Below, piece by piece: positions 13,154 through 35,345 of a DNA stretch of 64,000 nt. The position numbers were made by a program, and so were the translations under genes. Below the pieces are notes generated by a model. It had not been told where the DNA came from and ran no database searches. It saw nothing but the letters and a program-made list of their open reading frames with translations. Every line of letters starts with the position of its first letter. The stretch's first letter is position 1. The stretch covers positions 1-64,000 of the forward strand of contig NZ_FONA01000010.1 of NCBI RefSeq assembly GCF_900112795.1, read 5' to 3'. The DNA comes from Thermophagus xiamenensis. GTDB lineage: Bacteria > Bacteroidota > Bacteroidia > Bacteroidales > Marinilabiliaceae.

Positions 13154-14389
13154 TTATGATATGTTGTCATAAGCTGTTTCACCATGTTCATAAACATCGA
13201 GTCCTTCCTCTTCAACGCGCTTGGGGACTCTTAAGCCTACCGTAGCTTTCAGTGTTTTGAAAAGAATAAAACCTAACGCTAATGACCAGGCAGCGACAGC
13301 AACAACACCAAGAGCCTGAACGCCTAGCAGAGATGCACCTCCTCCGTAGAAAAGTCCACCATCTGTAGCTAACAAACCTACCATTAATGTACCTACGGCA
13401 CCACTAAATCCGTGAACTGAAACTGCACCTACAGGGTCATCAATTTTTAATGCATCGAGTAATTCTACACCAAAGATTAAAACAAAACCTGCAACGATGC
13501 CTATAATGACGGCCCCACCTGGCGTTACAATATCACATCCGGCAGTAATGGCAACCAAACCGGCTAATGCACCGTTTAGAGACAAGCCTAACGAAGGACG
13601 TTTATACCGAATCCAGGATATAACCATGGCAGTAACGGTACCAGCTGCAGCTGATAGGTTTGTTGTGACAAAAATAGATGCTACTGCAGAAATGTTTTCC
13701 AAACCACTGGCGGCTAGTTGTGAGCCGGGGTTGAAACCAAACCATCCAAACCACAGGATAAATACACCCAATGCTCCAATAGTTAAATTGTGGCCGGGAA
13801 TAGCTTTTCGCTTGCCGTTGTATTTTCCTAGACGGGGACCAATAATGGCTGTTCCCACTAAACCTAACCATGCACCAACTGAGTGAACTACAGTTGAGCC
13901 GGCAAAATCGTGAAATCCTAATTCACTTAACCAGCCACCGCCCCAGACCCAGTGACCCGAAATGGGATAAATAATTGCTGTAATAAAGAAACTGGCAATT
14001 ATATAGGCTGAAAATTCGGTACGTTCTGCAATTGCTCCCGAAACAATAGTCGCCGCTGTGGCTGCAAATACTGTTTGAAATATAAGCATGGCGTAATCAA
14101 CATCATTTCCATAACTGCCGGAAAAAAACAAATCCGGCATCCCTATAAATCCGCCTAAGTCTGTGCCAAACATTATGCTAAAGCCTACTATCCAGAAAAT
14201 AAGCGAACCCACTGAGAAATCCAGGAAGTTTTTCATTAATATGTTCGCTGTATTTTTTGCCCTGGTGAATCCAGCCTCTACCATCGCAAATCCCGGCTGC
14301 ATAAACATTACCAGCGTTGCTGCTATTAATACCCATAAAATATCTAATGAGACTGATAATTCTGATATGTTTTTAGTAATTTCTTCCAT
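13154..14389 (-). CDS. amtB: Ammonium transporter, Amt family
   Basis: 411-residue inner-membrane channel for ammonium with about eleven hydrophobic segments. Signature segments are intact: the N-terminal MFMQPGFAMVEAGFTRAKN, the DFAGSTVVHSVGA region carrying the first pore histidine, and SVHGFSGAVGTLMVG with the second. It has no cleavable signal peptide of the kind seen in E. coli AmtB. It is the third gene of a minus-strand set, 43 bp after glnK, whose product normally plugs the channel under nitrogen excess. Confidence 0.95.
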   Translation of the reverse strand: MEEITKNISELSVSLDILWVLIAATLVMFMQPGFAMVEAGFTRAKNTANILMKNFLDFSVGSLIFWIVGFSIMFGTDLGGFIGMPDLFFSGSYGNDVDYAMLIFQTVFAATAATIVSGAIAERTEFSAYIIASFFITAIIYPISGHWVWGGGWLSELGFHDFAGSTVVHSVGAWLGLVGTAIIGPRLGKYNGKRKAIPGHNLTIGALGVFILWFGWFGFNPGSQLAASGLENISAVASIFVTTNLSAAAGTVTAMVISWIRYKRPSLGLSLNGALAGLVAITAGCDIVTPGGAVIIGIVAGFVLIFGVELLDALKIDDPVGAVSVHGFSGAVGTLMVGLLATDGGLFYGGGASLLGVQALGVVAVAAWSLALGFILFKTLKATVGLRVPKRVEEEGLDVYEHGETAYDNIS

Positions 14390-14432: not shown

Positions 14433-14789
14433 TTAATCTTCCTCTCCCTTAATGTACAATGATTCATCTCCGGTTTCGCCGGTTCTTATGCGGTAGGATT
14501 CTTCAATATCTACAACGAATATTTTCCCGTCACCTATCTCGCCGGTTTTGGCAGATTCCAGAATAGCATTAATGGTACTTTGCAGGTTTTTGTCTCTTAC
14601 TACTATTGACATTTTGATGCGCTCTATTGAGCTGGTGTCGTACACAATTCCCCTAAAGGCACGTTCTTCACGTGATTTCCCTATGCCGCGTACTTCCCAA
14701 TATGAAAAGAAGTCGATGCCTACTTTACTTAGTGCTTCTTTGACATCGTCAAATTTTGTTTTCCTTATTATGGCTTCAATTTTCTTCAT
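14433..14789 (-). CDS. glnK: Nitrogen regulatory protein PII (GlnK-type)
   Basis: 118-residue PII trimer subunit sensing ATP/ADP and 2-oxoglutarate and controlling AmtB. The B-loop TGEIGDGKIFV and C-loop YRIRTGE, which form the nucleotide site, are conserved. The T-loop is atypical. Where enteric PII has the uridylylated tyrosine (ELYRG), this protein has Phe45 (RAFRG), so GlnD-type uridylylation at that position is not possible. The T-loop is also shorter. Linkage to amtB supports the GlnK assignment. It sits between the porin-like gene (55 bp upstream) and amtB. Confidence 0.93.
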   Translation of the reverse strand: MKKIEAIIRKTKFDDVKEALSKVGIDFFSYWEVRGIGKSREERAFRGIVYDTSSIERIKMSIVVRDKNLQSTINAILESAKTGEIGDGKIFVVDIEESYRIRTGETGDESLYIKGEED

Positions 14790-27880: not shown

Positions 27881-29170
27881 ATGCGAAACCGGATTATAAT
27901 TTTTATGGCGATTCTTTCTTTTTCCTTTGCGAATGCCCAGGAAAAAATATCTCTGTCGCTTGAAGATGCTCAAAAATATGCTTTGGAGCATAACAGAACC
28001 TTGAAAAATGCTTCGTTGGAATTTCAGAAGGCTGAAGCAAGTCGTTGGCAGTCTATCGCTACTATGCTGCCACAGATTTCCGCTTCTGCTGAATACGACA
28101 ATATGTTTGGATATAAAATGGATTTGGGAGAATTTCAAATATCTATGCCAAATTCTATTACCTACGGAGCAACTGCTTCGGTGGCCCTCAGCGGTGCTCA
28201 GGTGGTGGCCGTGCAAATTAAAGATATTTCAAAGAAAATGGCTGACATCTCTCAGCAGCAAACTGAACAACAAGTCACTGACCAGGTGAAAACTCTCTAT
28301 TATTCTGCACTGGTGCTCGAAAAAACGGCTGCTCTTTTAGAAGAAAACCTTAAAAACCTTCAAAAACTTCTCGTTTTTACTCAAAAGTCGGTTGATGTGG
28401 GAATGGCTGAGCAAACCGATGCCGATATCATTTCAGTTCAGGTGGCTTCCATGAAAACCAATGTGAATGCTACGCGTCGTTCCCTCGAAATGGCATATAA
28501 TTCCCTCCGGCTGCAACTCGGCCTGGATGTCGATACCAACATTGAACTTACTCAATCAATTGACGAATTGATGGGGGTCGATAGTTCTTTGGCCATTCTT
28601 AATAGCTCTTTTGACCCGGAAAACAATTTTGACTTCCAGTTGATGCAACAAAATCTGCAGCTGGCAAAAAAACAAGTCTCAGCACAAAAGTGGGCATATG
28701 CTCCTTCTTTAACGGCTTTTTATCAATATACCCAAAAAGAATATATGAGCGATGAAGCTACAATGAATTCTACACCGCCTAATATGTTTGGAGTTTCTCT
28801 TAGTATCCCAATTTTCTCCGGTGGAAGCAGAAAAAAAGCTGTCAAGGAGGCTGCTCTCAATTTCCAACAACAACTCAATACTTATGAAGATACCAGGGAA
28901 TCTTTGATTATTCAGCATCGTCAGCTGGTATACAATCTTAAGTCTAATTTCGAAACATATGAAACTCAGTTACAAAATCTCAAAGTCGTACAACGCCTCT
29001 TTGATAACATTGCGCGAAAATATGAACAAGGAGTTGCTTCAAGTCTCGATGTCACAAATGCCGGCTCTGACCTCATTGATGCACAAAATTCCTATGTTCA
29101 GGCACTGCTTCAGGTAGTTAACGCTCGAATCGAACTGGAACAGCTGCTTAATGTGGATAACGAAAACTGA
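27881..29170 (+). CDS. TolC-family outer-membrane efflux protein
   Basis: 429 residues. A signal peptide (MRNRIIIFMAILSFSFANAQ) is followed by two related helical-hairpin halves typical of TolC/OprM outer-membrane factors: SLEDAQKYALEHNRTLKNASLEFQ at the start and FDNIARKYEQGVASSLDVTNA at the matching point of the second half. It is expected to form the trimeric exit duct for the adaptor and RND pump encoded next. It is the first gene of the plus-strand efflux operon, separated from the adaptor by 122 bp. Confidence 0.93.
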   Translation: MRNRIIIFMAILSFSFANAQEKISLSLEDAQKYALEHNRTLKNASLEFQKAEASRWQSIATMLPQISASAEYDNMFGYKMDLGEFQISMPNSITYGATASVALSGAQVVAVQIKDISKKMADISQQQTEQQVTDQVKTLYYSALVLEKTAALLEENLKNLQKLLVFTQKSVDVGMAEQTDADIISVQVASMKTNVNATRRSLEMAYNSLRLQLGLDVDTNIELTQSIDELMGVDSSLAILNSSFDPENNFDFQLMQQNLQLAKKQVSAQKWAYAPSLTAFYQYTQKEYMSDEATMNSTPPNMFGVSLSIPIFSGGSRKKAVKEAALNFQQQLNTYEDTRESLIIQHRQLVYNLKSNFETYETQLQNLKVVQRLFDNIARKYEQGVASSLDVTNAGSDLIDAQNSYVQALLQVVNARIELEQLLNVDNEN

Positions 29171-29292: not shown

Positions 29293-30315
29293 ATGAATTC
29301 ATTTTTGAAAATCTTGGTAGTCATTGGTATCTCTTTCTGGATGGCTGCATGCTCAACATCTGAAAATAAGACTAATACAAAATCTCTGGAAAAAAGAGCT
29401 GAAAAAGTTAAAGTAACTACATTAGAAAAGCGGTTGATCGCCCGAAAATTAGAACTTTCAACCACTTTGCAGGGGTATGAATCGGTTAATATCGCCCCTT
29501 CAATTACCGGTACTATTGAGCATATTTTTGTGGATGTGGGTACTAAAGTCAAAAAGGGCGATCTTTTAGTACGACTCGACCAACAACAATACAATACTGC
29601 ACGTCTGACTTTTTTAAATGCTAAAACCGATTTTGAGCGGATTAAGGTTTTAAATGAAACGGGTACTGTTTCGCAACAAGAATTTGACCAGGCCAAACTG
29701 GCTTTTGACCAGGCTAAAGAAAACCTGGAGTTCCTCGAAGCCAATACTTTTGTCAGAGCACCTTTTAATGGTGTCATTGCCGCTAAAAATTATGAAGATG
29801 GAGAGCTCTATAGCGGTACGCCTATTTTAACCCTTACGCAAACTCACCTGCTCAAAGCTTATGTTAGTATTCCTGAGTCTTATGTCCCATTTGTTAATGA
29901 GGGGATGGAAATAAATGTCTTCTCCGATGTTTTTCCGACAGATACTTTTCCCGCTACGGTAGAAATTGTTTATCCTACTGTAGACTCGGATACTCATACT
30001 TTTCAGACTAAAATTCGCATTCCCAACCCCGATTTAAAGCTTCGGCCAGGTATGTTTGTTCGAACTACTATGAAGCTTAATGAAGTGGAAGCACTTTTGG
30101 TTCCCTATCAGGCTGTTTTGAAGCTCACCGGTTCCAATAATCGCTATCTGTTTGTCAATAATAATGGCGTGGCTAAACGTGTGGATGTAAAACTTGGACA
30201 ACGTTTTGATGAATTGATTGAAGTGTTCTCGGATGACTTAAAAGAAGGAGACCTGATAGTAACTGTAGGACAAGCCAAATTGGTTGATGGGACACCACTG
30301 GAGGTAGTAAAATAG
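29293..30315 (+). CDS. RND efflux periplasmic adaptor lipoprotein
   Basis: 340-residue membrane-fusion protein. The signal peptide ends in a lipobox (WMAAC), so it is anchored by lipid, probably to the inner membrane. The layout is that of HlyD/AcrA-type adaptors: a biotinyl-lipoyl-like half (VNIAPSITGTIEHIFVDVGTKVKKGDLLVRLD), a short helical hairpin, the second lipoyl half (FVRAPFNGVIAAKNYEDGEL), then a beta-barrel and a membrane-proximal domain (KLRPGMFVRTTMKL). It bridges the TolC-type duct and the RND pump. The spacing to the pump gene is 97 bp. Confidence 0.93.
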   Translation: MNSFLKILVVIGISFWMAACSTSENKTNTKSLEKRAEKVKVTTLEKRLIARKLELSTTLQGYESVNIAPSITGTIEHIFVDVGTKVKKGDLLVRLDQQQYNTARLTFLNAKTDFERIKVLNETGTVSQQEFDQAKLAFDQAKENLEFLEANTFVRAPFNGVIAAKNYEDGELYSGTPILTLTQTHLLKAYVSIPESYVPFVNEGMEINVFSDVFPTDTFPATVEIVYPTVDSDTHTFQTKIRIPNPDLKLRPGMFVRTTMKLNEVEALLVPYQAVLKLTGSNNRYLFVNNNGVAKRVDVKLGQRFDELIEVFSDDLKEGDLIVTVGQAKLVDGTPLEVVK

Positions 30316-30412: not shown

Positions 30413-33400
30413 ATGAGTATATTTAAAACATCTATCAATAAACCTGTTACAACAGCTCTTATTTTTGTGGCAGTTATGGTGGTAGGGTTGTTTTCTCTCA
30501 AACAACTGCCTATTGACCAGTATCCAGAAATAGACCCCCCATATATATCGGTTATGACCTCATATCCCGGGGCAAACGCCAGCGAAGTAGAAACTAATGT
30601 TACCCGGTTGTTGGAAAATAGTCTTAACTCTGTGGATGGACTTAAGAATTTGACATCCAAATCTCAGGATAACATGTCTTTAATTACCCTTGAGTTTGAA
30701 TGGGGGTTAAATCTCGATGAGGTTGTTAACGATGTTCGGTCATATATCGATATGACTAAAGATGAATTACCTGATGGGGCCGGTACACCTTTGATCTTTA
30801 AGCTTAGTACCAGCTCTATGCCTATTATGATGTACGCCGTTACCGCTAAAGAAAGTTATGCCGGGCTCGATAAGCTTCTTAATGATATTGTCATGCCTCA
30901 ATTAAATCGCGTCGATGGCATTGGTAATATCTCATTATCGGGTTCCCCTGAACGAAGAATCTATGTCGATATTGATCAGGAAAAAATTGATGCTTACGGT
31001 ATCTCGCTTGAAGATGTCGGAACGGCTATTAGTAACAACAATATTAATAGTACTTCGGGTACCGTAAAGATGAACAAAGAACAATACCAGTTGGAGTTGA
31101 GAAGTGAGTTTGTTGAAAGTGACGAAATAAATAATATTGTTGTAGCAACCTATGATGATGGCCGCCAAATTTTCGTCAAAGATTTGGCTACCGTCCGTGA
31201 TACCATTAAAGATTTAACTCTTGATGAGAAAATTGACGGACAAGATGGAGTGCGTGTGGTTATTTCCAAACAATCCGGGGCTAACACGGTAGAAGTCTGT
31301 GAAAAGGTTAACCGGGAAATGGCAAAAATTAAAGAGCTTTTGCCTGCCGATGTGGATATCAGGATTATTTTCGATTCTTCCGACAATATTAAAGACTCCA
31401 TTCGCAGTTTGGAGGAATCCATTATGTATGCCCTTTTATTTGTGGTGTTGGTAGTTCTTTTGTTTCTGGGGCGTTGGAGGGCTACACTCATTATTGGTAT
31501 CACTATTCCCATTGCTTTGGTGGTATCCTTTATTTACCTGGCTTTTGTCGATAGCTCACTCAATATAATTTCATTATCTTCTTTAACCGTAGCTATTGGT
31601 ATGGTTGTCGATGATGCCATTGTTGTGCTCGAAAATATTACCAGACATATTGAAAGGGGATCGAGTCCGCGTGAGGCCGCAATTTATGCTACCAATGAAG
31701 TGTGGGTGTCGGTTATTGCTACTACTTTGGTAATTGCTGCTGTTTTCGTCCCATTAACCATGTTGGGCGGATTGGCCGGTATAATGTTTAAAGAGTTAGG
31801 ATGGATCGTTACAATTGTTGTGGTTACTTCTACATTAGTTGCCATTTCTTTAACACCAATGCTCTCATCTAAATTGTTGAAATCAAGACCGGTTAAGGTT
31901 GATGAATTCGGACACTTGATTTTTGAAGAGCCCCGGAAAAATTGGTATCAAAAATATGTGGTGGGCGCATTGGACCGGATCGATGCCTGGTACTCACGGG
32001 TGTTACGCTTTTCTTTAACCCATAAGAAATTAACCATGGGTGTCGTTCTGGTAGTCTTTTTCCTTACTTTGTTGCCCATGTTTTTGGGACTAATTGGTAC
32101 CGACTTTATGCAGCAAAGTGACCATGGGCGACTGACTGTTACCGTTGAACTTAACAGAGGAACACGTATTGAAGAAACACTGAAAACCGCTCGTAAACTG
32201 GAAGCGCGTTTTCTGGAACTGGCGCCCGAGATTAAAATTATCTCCACTTCTGCCGGATCCCGTGATGATGCCAGTATTTCAGCGTTATTTTCTTCTACTA
32301 ATAACAATACCATTTCTATGGTTGTGGTATTAAAAGACAAAGACCAAAGGGAACGCTCTATTTTTGAAACGGCGGAAATTCTTAGGCAGGAAATGGCAAA
32401 TTATCCTGAAATTATTGAATATCAGGCGCAGGTAGCTTCCGGTATGGGTGGCAACGGACCATCTACCGTCGATGTGGAAATTTATGGACATGACTTTGAC
32501 CAGACAAACATTCTAGCTGAAAAAATACAACGAATTATCCAGGAAAAAGTTGAGGGAGCCAGAGACGTTACCATTAGTAGGGACGAAGACAGGGCCGAAT
32601 TAAAAATTAACGTCGATAAGGAAAAAATAGCACGACATGGTCTTGACGCCTCTACCGTAGCAACTTTAGCCTATAACAGAGTTACCGGTATGACCGCCGG
32701 ATATTTGAAAGAAGATGGTGACGAATATGCAATCGTGGTACGGCTGCTTGAAGAAGACCGCAATTCCATATCCGATATCGAAAACCTTTCTATTCCTACT
32801 GTTAAAGGAAATATTAAGCTTAGTGAAGTCGCAGATGTTGAAGAGTATTGGGCGCCACCTACAATCGAACGGAAAAGCCGGCAGAGAATCGTGACCGTAT
32901 CGGCTACCCCTTTTAAGATTTCATTGGGAGAATTGGCGGTAGATATTAAAGCTGCATTAGAGCAGGTCGATGTTCCGCAGGGTATAACCATCCGGTTGGC
33001 CGGGGATTACGAAGACCAACAGGAAACTTTTGCGGATATGGGGCTTTTGTTATTGCTCATCGTATTGCTCGTTTATATCGTGATGGCATCACAGTTTGAA
33101 TCAATGTCTAAACCCTTTATTATCATGATGTCGGTGCCATTCGCTATCTCTGGGGTTGTCCTCGCTCTTTTTGTTACCGGTATTTCTCTCGACATGATTG
33201 GTGCTCTTGGTGTTATTATGCTTGTGGGGATAGTGGTGAAGAACGGTATTGTATTGGTTGATTATATTAACCTTATGAGAGACCGCGGGTACGAGTTAAA
33301 TGAAGCTATCGCTCTTTCCGGTGCTTCTCGTTTGCGGCCGGTGTTAATGACTGCATTTACTACAATCTTAGGTATGTTGCCTATGGCACTCAGCAGCGGA

Positions 33401-33589
33401 ACCGGTTCCGAAGCCTGGAGACCTATGGGAGTCGTTGTTATTGGAGGACTACTCGTTTCTACATTTGTAACACTCATCGTGGTTCCTTTACTTTACGGCA
33501 TTATGTCTAAACATGGTGAGAGAGATAAAAACGAACAAAAACGAAAAGAGTTCTTCTTTTTACAAATTGCCGATGATGAGGATAAATAA
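30413..33589 (+). CDS. RND multidrug efflux transporter, HAE-1 type
   Basis: 1058-residue proton-driven inner-membrane pump of the AcrB/MexB class, with 12 predicted membrane segments and two large periplasmic loops. TM4 carries the paired aspartates of drug pumps (AIGMVVDDAIVVLENI) in place of the different arrangement of metal (CzcA) pumps. TM10 has the relay lysine (GIVVKNGIVLVDYINL). The start FKTSINKPVTT and the internal repeat are typical. It is the third gene of the tolC-adaptor-pump operon. Substrates cannot be read from sequence. Confidence 0.95.
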   Translation: MSIFKTSINKPVTTALIFVAVMVVGLFSLKQLPIDQYPEIDPPYISVMTSYPGANASEVETNVTRLLENSLNSVDGLKNLTSKSQDNMSLITLEFEWGLNLDEVVNDVRSYIDMTKDELPDGAGTPLIFKLSTSSMPIMMYAVTAKESYAGLDKLLNDIVMPQLNRVDGIGNISLSGSPERRIYVDIDQEKIDAYGISLEDVGTAISNNNINSTSGTVKMNKEQYQLELRSEFVESDEINNIVVATYDDGRQIFVKDLATVRDTIKDLTLDEKIDGQDGVRVVISKQSGANTVEVCEKVNREMAKIKELLPADVDIRIIFDSSDNIKDSIRSLEESIMYALLFVVLVVLLFLGRWRATLIIGITIPIALVVSFIYLAFVDSSLNIISLSSLTVAIGMVVDDAIVVLENITRHIERGSSPREAAIYATNEVWVSVIATTLVIAAVFVPLTMLGGLAGIMFKELGWIVTIVVVTSTLVAISLTPMLSSKLLKSRPVKVDEFGHLIFEEPRKNWYQKYVVGALDRIDAWYSRVLRFSLTHKKLTMGVVLVVFFLTLLPMFLGLIGTDFMQQSDHGRLTVTVELNRGTRIEETLKTARKLEARFLELAPEIKIISTSAGSRDDASISALFSSTNNNTISMVVVLKDKDQRERSIFETAEILRQEMANYPEIIEYQAQVASGMGGNGPSTVDVEIYGHDFDQTNILAEKIQRIIQEKVEGARDVTISRDEDRAELKINVDKEKIARHGLDASTVATLAYNRVTGMTAGYLKEDGDEYAIVVRLLEEDRNSISDIENLSIPTVKGNIKLSEVADVEEYWAPPTIERKSRQRIVTVSATPFKISLGELAVDIKAALEQVDVPQGITIRLAGDYEDQQETFADMGLLLLLIVLLVYIVMASQFESMSKPFIIMMSVPFAISGVVLALFVTGISLDMIGALGVIMLVGIVVKNGIVLVDYINLMRDRGYELNEAIALSGASRLRPVLMTAFTTILGMLPMALSSGTGSEAWRPMGVVVIGGLLVSTFVTLIVVPLLYGIMSKHGERDKNEQKRKEFFFLQIADDEDK

Positions 33590-33625: not shown

Positions 33626-33706
33626 TATGGTAGTTAGAGTTTAGTTTTTTGTCGATTAATTTGTATTAGGACAGCTTTTTCAGCCAAACAAACCCTAACT
33701 ACCATA
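33626..33706. repeat. Imperfect long inverted repeat after the RND gene
   Basis: The arms TATGGTAGTTAGAGTTT (33626-33642) and AAACCCTAACTACCATA (about 33690-33706) pair at all but one position around a 47-nt centre, which itself has a small stem. It lies 36 bp past the pump stop codon and before the PII-like gene. It could be a terminator or processing structure, or a remnant mobile repeat. There is no T-tract directly after it. Confidence 0.6.
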
Positions 33707-33803
33707 TCTAATAATCTAACATCTAACATCTAACATCTAACATCTAATAATCTTATATCTAACATCTAACATCTAATAATCTTATATCTATAATCTTATA
33801 TCT
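33707..33803. repeat. Simple repeat of ATCTAAC / ATCTAATAATCTTAT units
   Basis: About 97 bp made of tandem 7-bp ATCTAAC units alternating with ATCTAATAATCTTAT, running up to the ATG of the PII-like gene. It forms that gene's whole proximal leader, and no Shine-Dalgarno is visible in it. Confidence 0.85.
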
Positions 33804-34097
33804 ATGAAAGCAGTCTTTATAGTATTTAACCAAGCCAACACCGAACGGATTGAGTATATGTTGGACCAGTTAAAAATCCGAGGCTTTACCTTTTGGGAAC
33901 AAGTACAGGGCCGGGGAACGGTTGATGGTGAACCCAGAAGGGGAACGCATACTTGGCCCGAAATGAATTCCGCCATAATTACTATGGTGGAGGATGACAA
34001 AGTGGATTTGTTGCTCAAAACGGTTCATAAACTGGATATGCGGAATAAGGCAATTGGTGTACGTGCCTTCGTTTGGGATATCACCAAGCATTATTAA
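33804..34097 (+). CDS. PII-like protein linked to an RND efflux pump
   Basis: 97-residue small alpha/beta protein with a PII-like ferredoxin-fold pattern: strand MKAVFIVFN, helix ERIEYMLDQLKI, a shortened loop with GRGTVDGEPRRGTHTWPE, strand SAIITMVEDD, helix VDLLLKTVHKL and strand IGVRAFVWDI. It lacks the canonical B-loop and C-loop signatures of GlnK, so nucleotide binding would differ. PII-like proteins beside efflux pumps are known as a separate group of the superfamily (PII-NG, as I recall). The gene lies 214 bp after the pump gene and 51 bp before a TetR gene, suggesting a sensing role for the pump. The exact function is not established. Confidence 0.75.
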   Translation: MKAVFIVFNQANTERIEYMLDQLKIRGFTFWEQVQGRGTVDGEPRRGTHTWPEMNSAIITMVEDDKVDLLLKTVHKLDMRNKAIGVRAFVWDITKHY

Positions 34098-34148: not shown

Positions 34149-34745
34149 ATGCAAAGTAAGGGGTTTGACTTGAACCACATCAAAAAAATGTTCTATAAAT
34201 ACGGGGTGAAGAATCTCACAATGGATGATGTGGCTCACGAATTGGGCATTTCGAAAAAGACACTCTATCAGCAGGTGAAAACCAAAAACGATTTGGTATT
34301 TGCTGTATTAAACGATGATTTTGAAAAATTCAAAAAGGATGTGGGGAAGATGGTGACGTCAACCGCTGGTGCTATTCCCAGATTGTATGAATTGTATCGC
34401 TTGTTTCAGGAGAGCACCAAATTCATAACGCCGGTTTTTGTCTTCTCCCTTTCCAAAACCAATCCCGAATTGGCATCTGACATTCGCAAAAAGTACCATA
34501 ATTTCATTATTGATGTGGTTAGTGATATTATGGATGCGGGACAAAAAGATGGGGACTTTATTGCTGCCTTTAAAGAGGATTTTCCACGTTTGGTAGCGGG
34601 CTATATTTTGCAATCAGGAACCTGGCATTTGGAAGAGAGAGGCGAAAATATTGAGTTTAACAGTGCCTTTTATCTGCAAATTGGAGGTATTTGCACCGAA
34701 GAGGGTAAAAAAACGCTGGACCGCTTTATAAAAAAATCCCACTAA
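34149..34745 (+). CDS. TetR/AcrR-family transcriptional regulator
   Basis: 198 residues. The N-terminal helix-turn-helix is clear (MFYKYGVKNLTMDDVAHELGISKKTLYQQVKTKNDL, about 12-48), followed by an all-helical ligand and dimer domain. The ATG follows GAAGGAAG, a good Shine-Dalgarno. Lying at the end of the tolC-adaptor-RND-PII-like row, it is the likely local repressor of the efflux genes. TetR regulators of RND pumps are usually divergent or first in the operon, so the 3' position is less usual. A hairpin terminator follows. Confidence 0.88.
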   Translation: MQSKGFDLNHIKKMFYKYGVKNLTMDDVAHELGISKKTLYQQVKTKNDLVFAVLNDDFEKFKKDVGKMVTSTAGAIPRLYELYRLFQESTKFITPVFVFSLSKTNPELASDIRKKYHNFIIDVVSDIMDAGQKDGDFIAAFKEDFPRLVAGYILQSGTWHLEERGENIEFNSAFYLQIGGICTEEGKKTLDRFIKKSH

Positions 34746-34815: not shown

Positions 34816-34954
34816 GTTGTCTTTAAAGGATGTCGGAAACGTGGGACTTTTAACCCCGTAATCTTTTAGAGAACAGTAAAAAACTATACTAAAATAGGTT
34901 CGGCCAAAGATTATTTCCCAAAATTATCCTATCATAAAGTTTTTCATTCCCGAC

Positions 34955-35345
34955 CCCTTACCAAGTGAAAGCGTTTCCCCTTACCGAGGGAAAGTGTTTC
35001 CCTTTACCGAGGGAAAGCGTTTCCCCTTACCGAGGGAAAGGGTTTCCCTTTACCGAGGGAAAGTGTTTCCCTTTACCGAGGGAAAGCGTTTCCCTTTACC
35101 GAGGGAAAGTGTTTCCCTTTACCGAGGGAAAGCGTTTCCCTTTACCGAGGGAAAGTGTTTCCCTTTACCGAGGGAAAGCGTTTCCCTTTACCGAGGGAAA
35201 GTGTTTCCCTTTACCGAGGGAAAGCGTTTCCCTTTACCGAGGGAAAGTGTTTCCCTTTACCGAGGGAAAGCGTTTCCCCTTACCGAGGGAAAGCGTTTCC
35301 CCTTACCGAGGGAAAGGGTTTCCCTTTACCGTGGGAAACACTTTC
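34955..35345. repeat. 23-bp tandem array of short palindromes, 17 copies
   Basis: Seventeen contiguous copies of CCtTTACCGAGGGAAAGNGTTTC. Each unit junction holds the palindrome GGGAAA-GNG-TTTCCC, so every copy can form a 6-bp hairpin. Copies 5-14 strictly alternate TGT and GCG at the loop, revealing a 46-bp higher-order unit. The first and last copies are degenerate. Because 23 is not a multiple of three, all three forward frames stay open across it. The array lies between the convergent tetR and dehydrogenase genes and ends 18 bp from the latter's stop codon. Confidence 0.95.

Follow-up and report, generated by a model that had tools for sequence, protein, structure and literature searches.

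Transcription is commonly regarded as the main level at which drug-type RND pumps are controlled. RND permeases form trimers and expose one face to the cytosol. Direct docking of a PII-like protein on a transporter has been described for SbtB-SbtA, where the two trimers lie on a common threefold axis and the T-loops of the PII-like protein reach into the transporter, an arrangement likened in the same work to that of GlnK on AmtB (PMC8352866). Genes for PII-like proteins of the PII-NG group lie at metal pumps of the CzcABC type (Sant'Anna 2009, cited in PMC7726332). PG0541 has been listed among the proteins specific to the Bacteroidales or part of that order (PMC1887533) and was about 2-fold up in the rat oral cavity (PMC4493947). 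XepCAB, an RND xenobiotic pump of Porphyromonas gingivalis, exports rifampin, puromycin and ethidium (PMC4790292), and PG0538 and PG0539 are discussed in connection with efflux in PMC12382797. By number, the locus tags PG0538 and PG0539 fall just before PG0541. XepCAB, presumably PG0538-PG0540, resembles the pump described below in being a tripartite RND drug pump of the Bacteroidales, a likeness drawn from its description and locus-tag number; summaries of the XepCAB work make no mention of a PII-like protein. A search of the open-access literature found no functional study of the PG0541 family.

The window, a stretch of 64,000 nucleotides from Thermophagus xiamenensis (contig NZ_FONA01000010.1), encodes on its plus strand a protein of 97 amino acids with an ATG start codon (33804..34097). 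This protein matches the whole of the NCBIfam profile NF045581 (120.8 bits against a cut-off of 45; positions 1-91 of 91), which is the NCBI curated "PG0541 family transporter-associated protein", and scores 34.2 bits against Pfam P-II (PF00543; cut-off 25). As a phmmer search against the PDB sequences yielded chance matches only, a structural search was required. The monomer predicted by AlphaFold2 (AF2) from a family alignment of 53 sequences (mean pLDDT 84.4, pTM 0.77) shows the ferredoxin-like order b-a-b-b-a-b with a long T-loop, and Foldseek aligned it with GlnK, GlnB, CPII and PotN in the PDB at E values of about 1e-6 and TM-scores of about 0.7-0.78. The PII-like alpha/beta pattern proposed in an earlier sequence-only reading of the locus is thus borne out by Pfam, model and structural search alike, the predicted fold being that of PII. 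Assignment as a PII-fold protein of the PG0541 family can be regarded as virtually certain. The full-length match and the position of the gene after an RND permease leave no difference between this locus and the family, which has already been named by NCBI and is, to judge from the literature searched, uncharacterised; the locus is a good lead, not a discovery.

The PII-like gene follows a TolC-MFP-RND set and is itself followed by a TetR gene. A TolC-type outer-membrane channel (27881..29170, plus strand; PF02321, 177 bits) and the periplasmic adaptor (MFP) of the pump (29293..30315, plus strand; TIGR01730, 214 bits against a cut-off of 94.9) precede an HAE-type RND permease of 1058 amino acids (30413..33589, plus strand), which is recognised by ACR_tran (857 bits) and its place in the pump tree. 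The drug-type Asp-Asp pair already noticed in TM4 was located in the motif VVDDAIVVLEN as Asp400-Asp401 (31610..31615, plus strand), and sequence comparison places the third proton-relay residue, Lys943, in TM10 (33239..33241, plus strand). Since the best NCBIfam model, RND_permease_2, is matched at 777 bits, below the curated multidrug subfamily cut-off of 1250, the pump is HAE-type by motif, its exact subfamily being without a curated model; the CusA/CzcA model scored 496 bits, under its cut-off of 701. Between the pump stop codon and the PII-like start codon lies an AT-rich array of 7-bp repeats (ATCTAAC-like; 33704..33804, detected with TRF) of a dispersed kind; similar stretches recur at over 20 further sites of the genome. 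This array may separate the PII-like gene from the pump transcript.

Among close relatives the PII-like gene lies directly after the RND permease in 80 of 80 loci, a set that is not independent because it was chosen by similarity. A phylum sample of 296 genomes yielded 18 places above the NF045581 cut-off in 17 genomes, and all 18 are directly after an RND permease; the weaker matches examined in this sample are not, one of them lying beside an SbtA-like gene. The order sample contains the PG0541 family in 69 of 149 genomes, at 77 places, with an RND match directly upstream at 74 of them and an RND fragment at a contig end upstream of the place in genome G296. With G440:C120 set aside because it is cut by the contig start, 75 of the 76 assessable places are directly after an RND gene, at a median gap of about 70 bases. 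Viewed from the pump, 61 of the 64 RND places scoring at least 900 bits against the window pump are linked; another runs off its contig, and the true exceptions are G325 and G438, where no PII-like gene occurs nearby. The 30 RND places listed with scores under 566 bits include no independent linked pump, their one linked member being the second part of a linked pump that is split, and none of the further HAE-type RNDs sampled from the order had a PG0541 gene attached. In the pump tree, built with a quick method and with modest support for its deep forks, G325 and G438 appear as nested losses inside a single clade of linked pumps, and seven further linked pumps, from more distant members of the phylum, make up a second clade. 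The gene context is therefore kept with the pump rather than scattered, and genetic linkage between PG0541 and its RND pump is near-obligate. The expectation that the partner would differ from the classical metal setting holds in that the pump is of the drug type, but the pairing is a family trait across the Bacteroidales and related groups and no peculiarity of this locus.

Because it travels so constantly with one kind of pump, the PG0541 protein probably serves that pump as its dedicated regulator. That it is tied almost always to one pump clade across the Bacteroidales further points to metabolic control of the pump itself, and direct regulation of the pump by the PII-like protein is given a little better than an even chance. 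Counting against direct regulation are the two clade pumps with no such gene nearby and a PG0541 gene standing alone at L178 (6421-6714, G438:C118); as this last genome also carries one of the unlinked clade pumps, the pair can evidently separate. The near one-to-one linkage would also be expected of an assembly or stability factor, that is, a structural subunit of the pump that senses no ligand, and the loss of the canonical residues for ATP and 2-oxoglutarate in the B- and C-loops also fits such a role. This explanation is nevertheless considered improbable in view of the conserved Thr29, GxG and Arg/His 87, which suggest from sequence that PG0541 proteins have kept a cleft.

The PII-like gene had been described as sitting between an HAE-1 pump and a TetR regulator. 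This order is found in the window, where a TetR-type protein of 198 amino acids (34149..34745, plus strand; PF00440) is encoded directly downstream, but the adjacency is incidental. A TetR resembling that of the window was found only beside the genes of close Marinilabiliaceae relatives and most loci are without one; it is a local neighbour, and a TetR link was rejected as a trait of the family. Several other PG0541 loci carry a TetR gene upstream of TolC. Known binding partners of PII proteins include regulators in addition to transporters, and the PII-like protein could accordingly control expression of the pump, for instance by binding TetR or another regulator and so passing a metabolic signal on to transcription. 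It is, however, the RND permease and not TetR that is the near-constant neighbour, and with a similar TetR missing at most loci, control through expression is regarded as unlikely.

Loops were compared in an alignment of the PII-like protein with GlnK and three PII-NG-like proteins of its own genome and with E. coli GlnB as a reference. In this alignment the canonical B-loop (GDGK) and C-loop (RIRTGE) are absent from the PII-like protein, as the earlier reading had it; Thr29 and the GxG of the T-loop base are both kept. PG0541 proteins carry Arg or His at position 87, close to where the B-loop Lys would lie. The region of Lys58, the 2-oxoglutarate residue, contains Asn55 and no Lys, in a register made ambiguous by an alignment gap. 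The T-loop (residues 35-54, QGRGTVDGEPRRGTHTWPEM; 33906..33965, plus strand) is well conserved in the family alignment A1 and is the expected target-binding element. Its pattern in PG0541 proteins is G-x-G...P..GTH.WP..N, with G36, G38 and P52 invariant in the 53 sequences of alignment A1, while His49 is replaced by Arg and Trp51 by Phe or Tyr in subgroup D. The T-loop is the part of the AF2 model with the lowest confidence and is thus probably flexible. Its length also bears on whether the protein could be a SAM-lyase-like enzyme of the PII superfamily whose substrate is a small molecule that leaves the cell through the pump. SAM and SAM-AMP lyases of PII fold do exist (PMC12255297), but in these the T-loop spans 10-12 residues and terminates in a catalytic Glu; in the window protein it is about 20 residues long, and Glu53 is confined to the subgroup of the window, making an enzymatic role highly improbable.

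Two PG0541 proteins are encoded in the genome, each at an HAE-type pump, with the second copy on C41, along with four other PII proteins. One of these is a canonical GlnK (14433-14789) encoded beside AmtB (13154-14389) on the minus strand of the window, and three (L141 on C39, L142 on C54 and L143 on C16), assigned to PII-NG by context and not against a reference set, are encoded at metal-efflux gene sets, which on C39 and C54 include a CusA/CzcA-family sequence. On these two contigs the RND frame continues into a TolC-like domain. PII-NG and PG0541 proteins share the PII fold and a gene beside an RND pump, and His49 of the T-loop, present in 46 of the 53 family sequences, would suit a PII-NG or CutA-like metal sensor on a metal-exporting pump, as might also be suggested by the PII-NG proteins at CzcABC-type pumps (PMC7726332). 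Unlike PG0541, however, the PII-NG-like proteins of this genome occur in metal-efflux sets, retain the GDG of the B-loop and keep both B- and C-loops, and in the PII tree they form a separate clade (support 100/99) from the PG0541 proteins (one clade, 98/92). PII-NG assignment of the window protein was rejected on context, loops and tree. With His49 replaced by Arg in subgroup D and the Asp-Asp and Lys of the pump differing from the metal-type TM4, a metal-sensing role is held to be very unlikely. The three PII-NG-like proteins group with GlnB, and the PG0541 clade falls on the SbtB-like side of the tree, its exact sister group being unsure because of long branches. An SbtB-like protein encoded beside an SbtA-like gene scores under the PG0541 cut-off. 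An SbtA-like gene with an SbtB-like gene after it was seen at L132 (6132-7397), in a genome that belongs to this phylum and not to the cyanobacteria.

Direct regulation of the pump, the reading preferred here, would take its form from known complexes. GlnK-AmtB and SbtB-SbtA resemble the PG0541 pair in that a PII-fold protein is dedicated to a trimeric transporter, with contact through the T-loop to be expected. They differ in that the PG0541 partner belongs to another superfamily (RND) and exports rather than imports, and in that the canonical B- and C-loop residues are missing from the PG0541 protein. Given the docking seen in these two complexes and the trimeric nature of RND permeases, the simplest reading is that of a further such pair. 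A PII trimer of the PG0541 protein, itself cytosolic, would rest against the inner side of the permease trimer, and its conserved T-loops would contact either the cytosolic loops of the pump or its tail. Whether the pump is slowed or released would depend on a small ligand from the cytosol, occupying the inter-subunit cleft of the PII trimer. Docking of trimer on trimer through the T-loops, with inhibition as the default effect, is inferred by analogy with the GlnK-AmtB and SbtB-SbtA complexes. The wider proposal, that PG0541 represents an additional PII-transporter pair beside these two, in which a metabolite-responsive trimer acts from the cytosol to gate an RND pump of the drug type directly, such that multidrug efflux in the Bacteroidales could be switched by metabolic state with no new transcription, is put forward tentatively, its likelihood being placed somewhat short of even. 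The gene pair is small enough for direct testing, and the same genome offers matched comparisons in GlnK-AmtB and the PII-NG-like proteins at the metal pumps.

A candidate docking site on the pump may be its cytosolic C-terminal tail (33512..33586, plus strand), which bears the motif RKEFxF(M/L)Q. The motif is common to the subclade nearest the window and missing from more distant linked pumps, and the tails of pumps without a PII gene resemble those of their linked neighbours; as a general docking site it was therefore rejected. Positions that mark the linked pump clade showed no significant cytosolic enrichment (p = 0.08 versus the periplasm and 0.39 versus the membrane). With the tail motif confined to one subclade and the cytosolic enrichment weak, the docking surface remains a candidate. 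The Asp-Asp and Lys residues occur in all linked pumps examined except L187, L188, L189, L190 and L191, which have Asp-Asn in TM4 and Asn in TM10, possibly reflecting, to judge from these residues, a different coupling ion. The PII-like partners of these five pumps have lost the GxG at the T-loop base. Elsewhere in the window, two spacerless tandem arrays occur at 97-425 and 34954-35338, with units of 22 and 23 bases in about 15 and 17 copies, respectively, and 92-93% matches.
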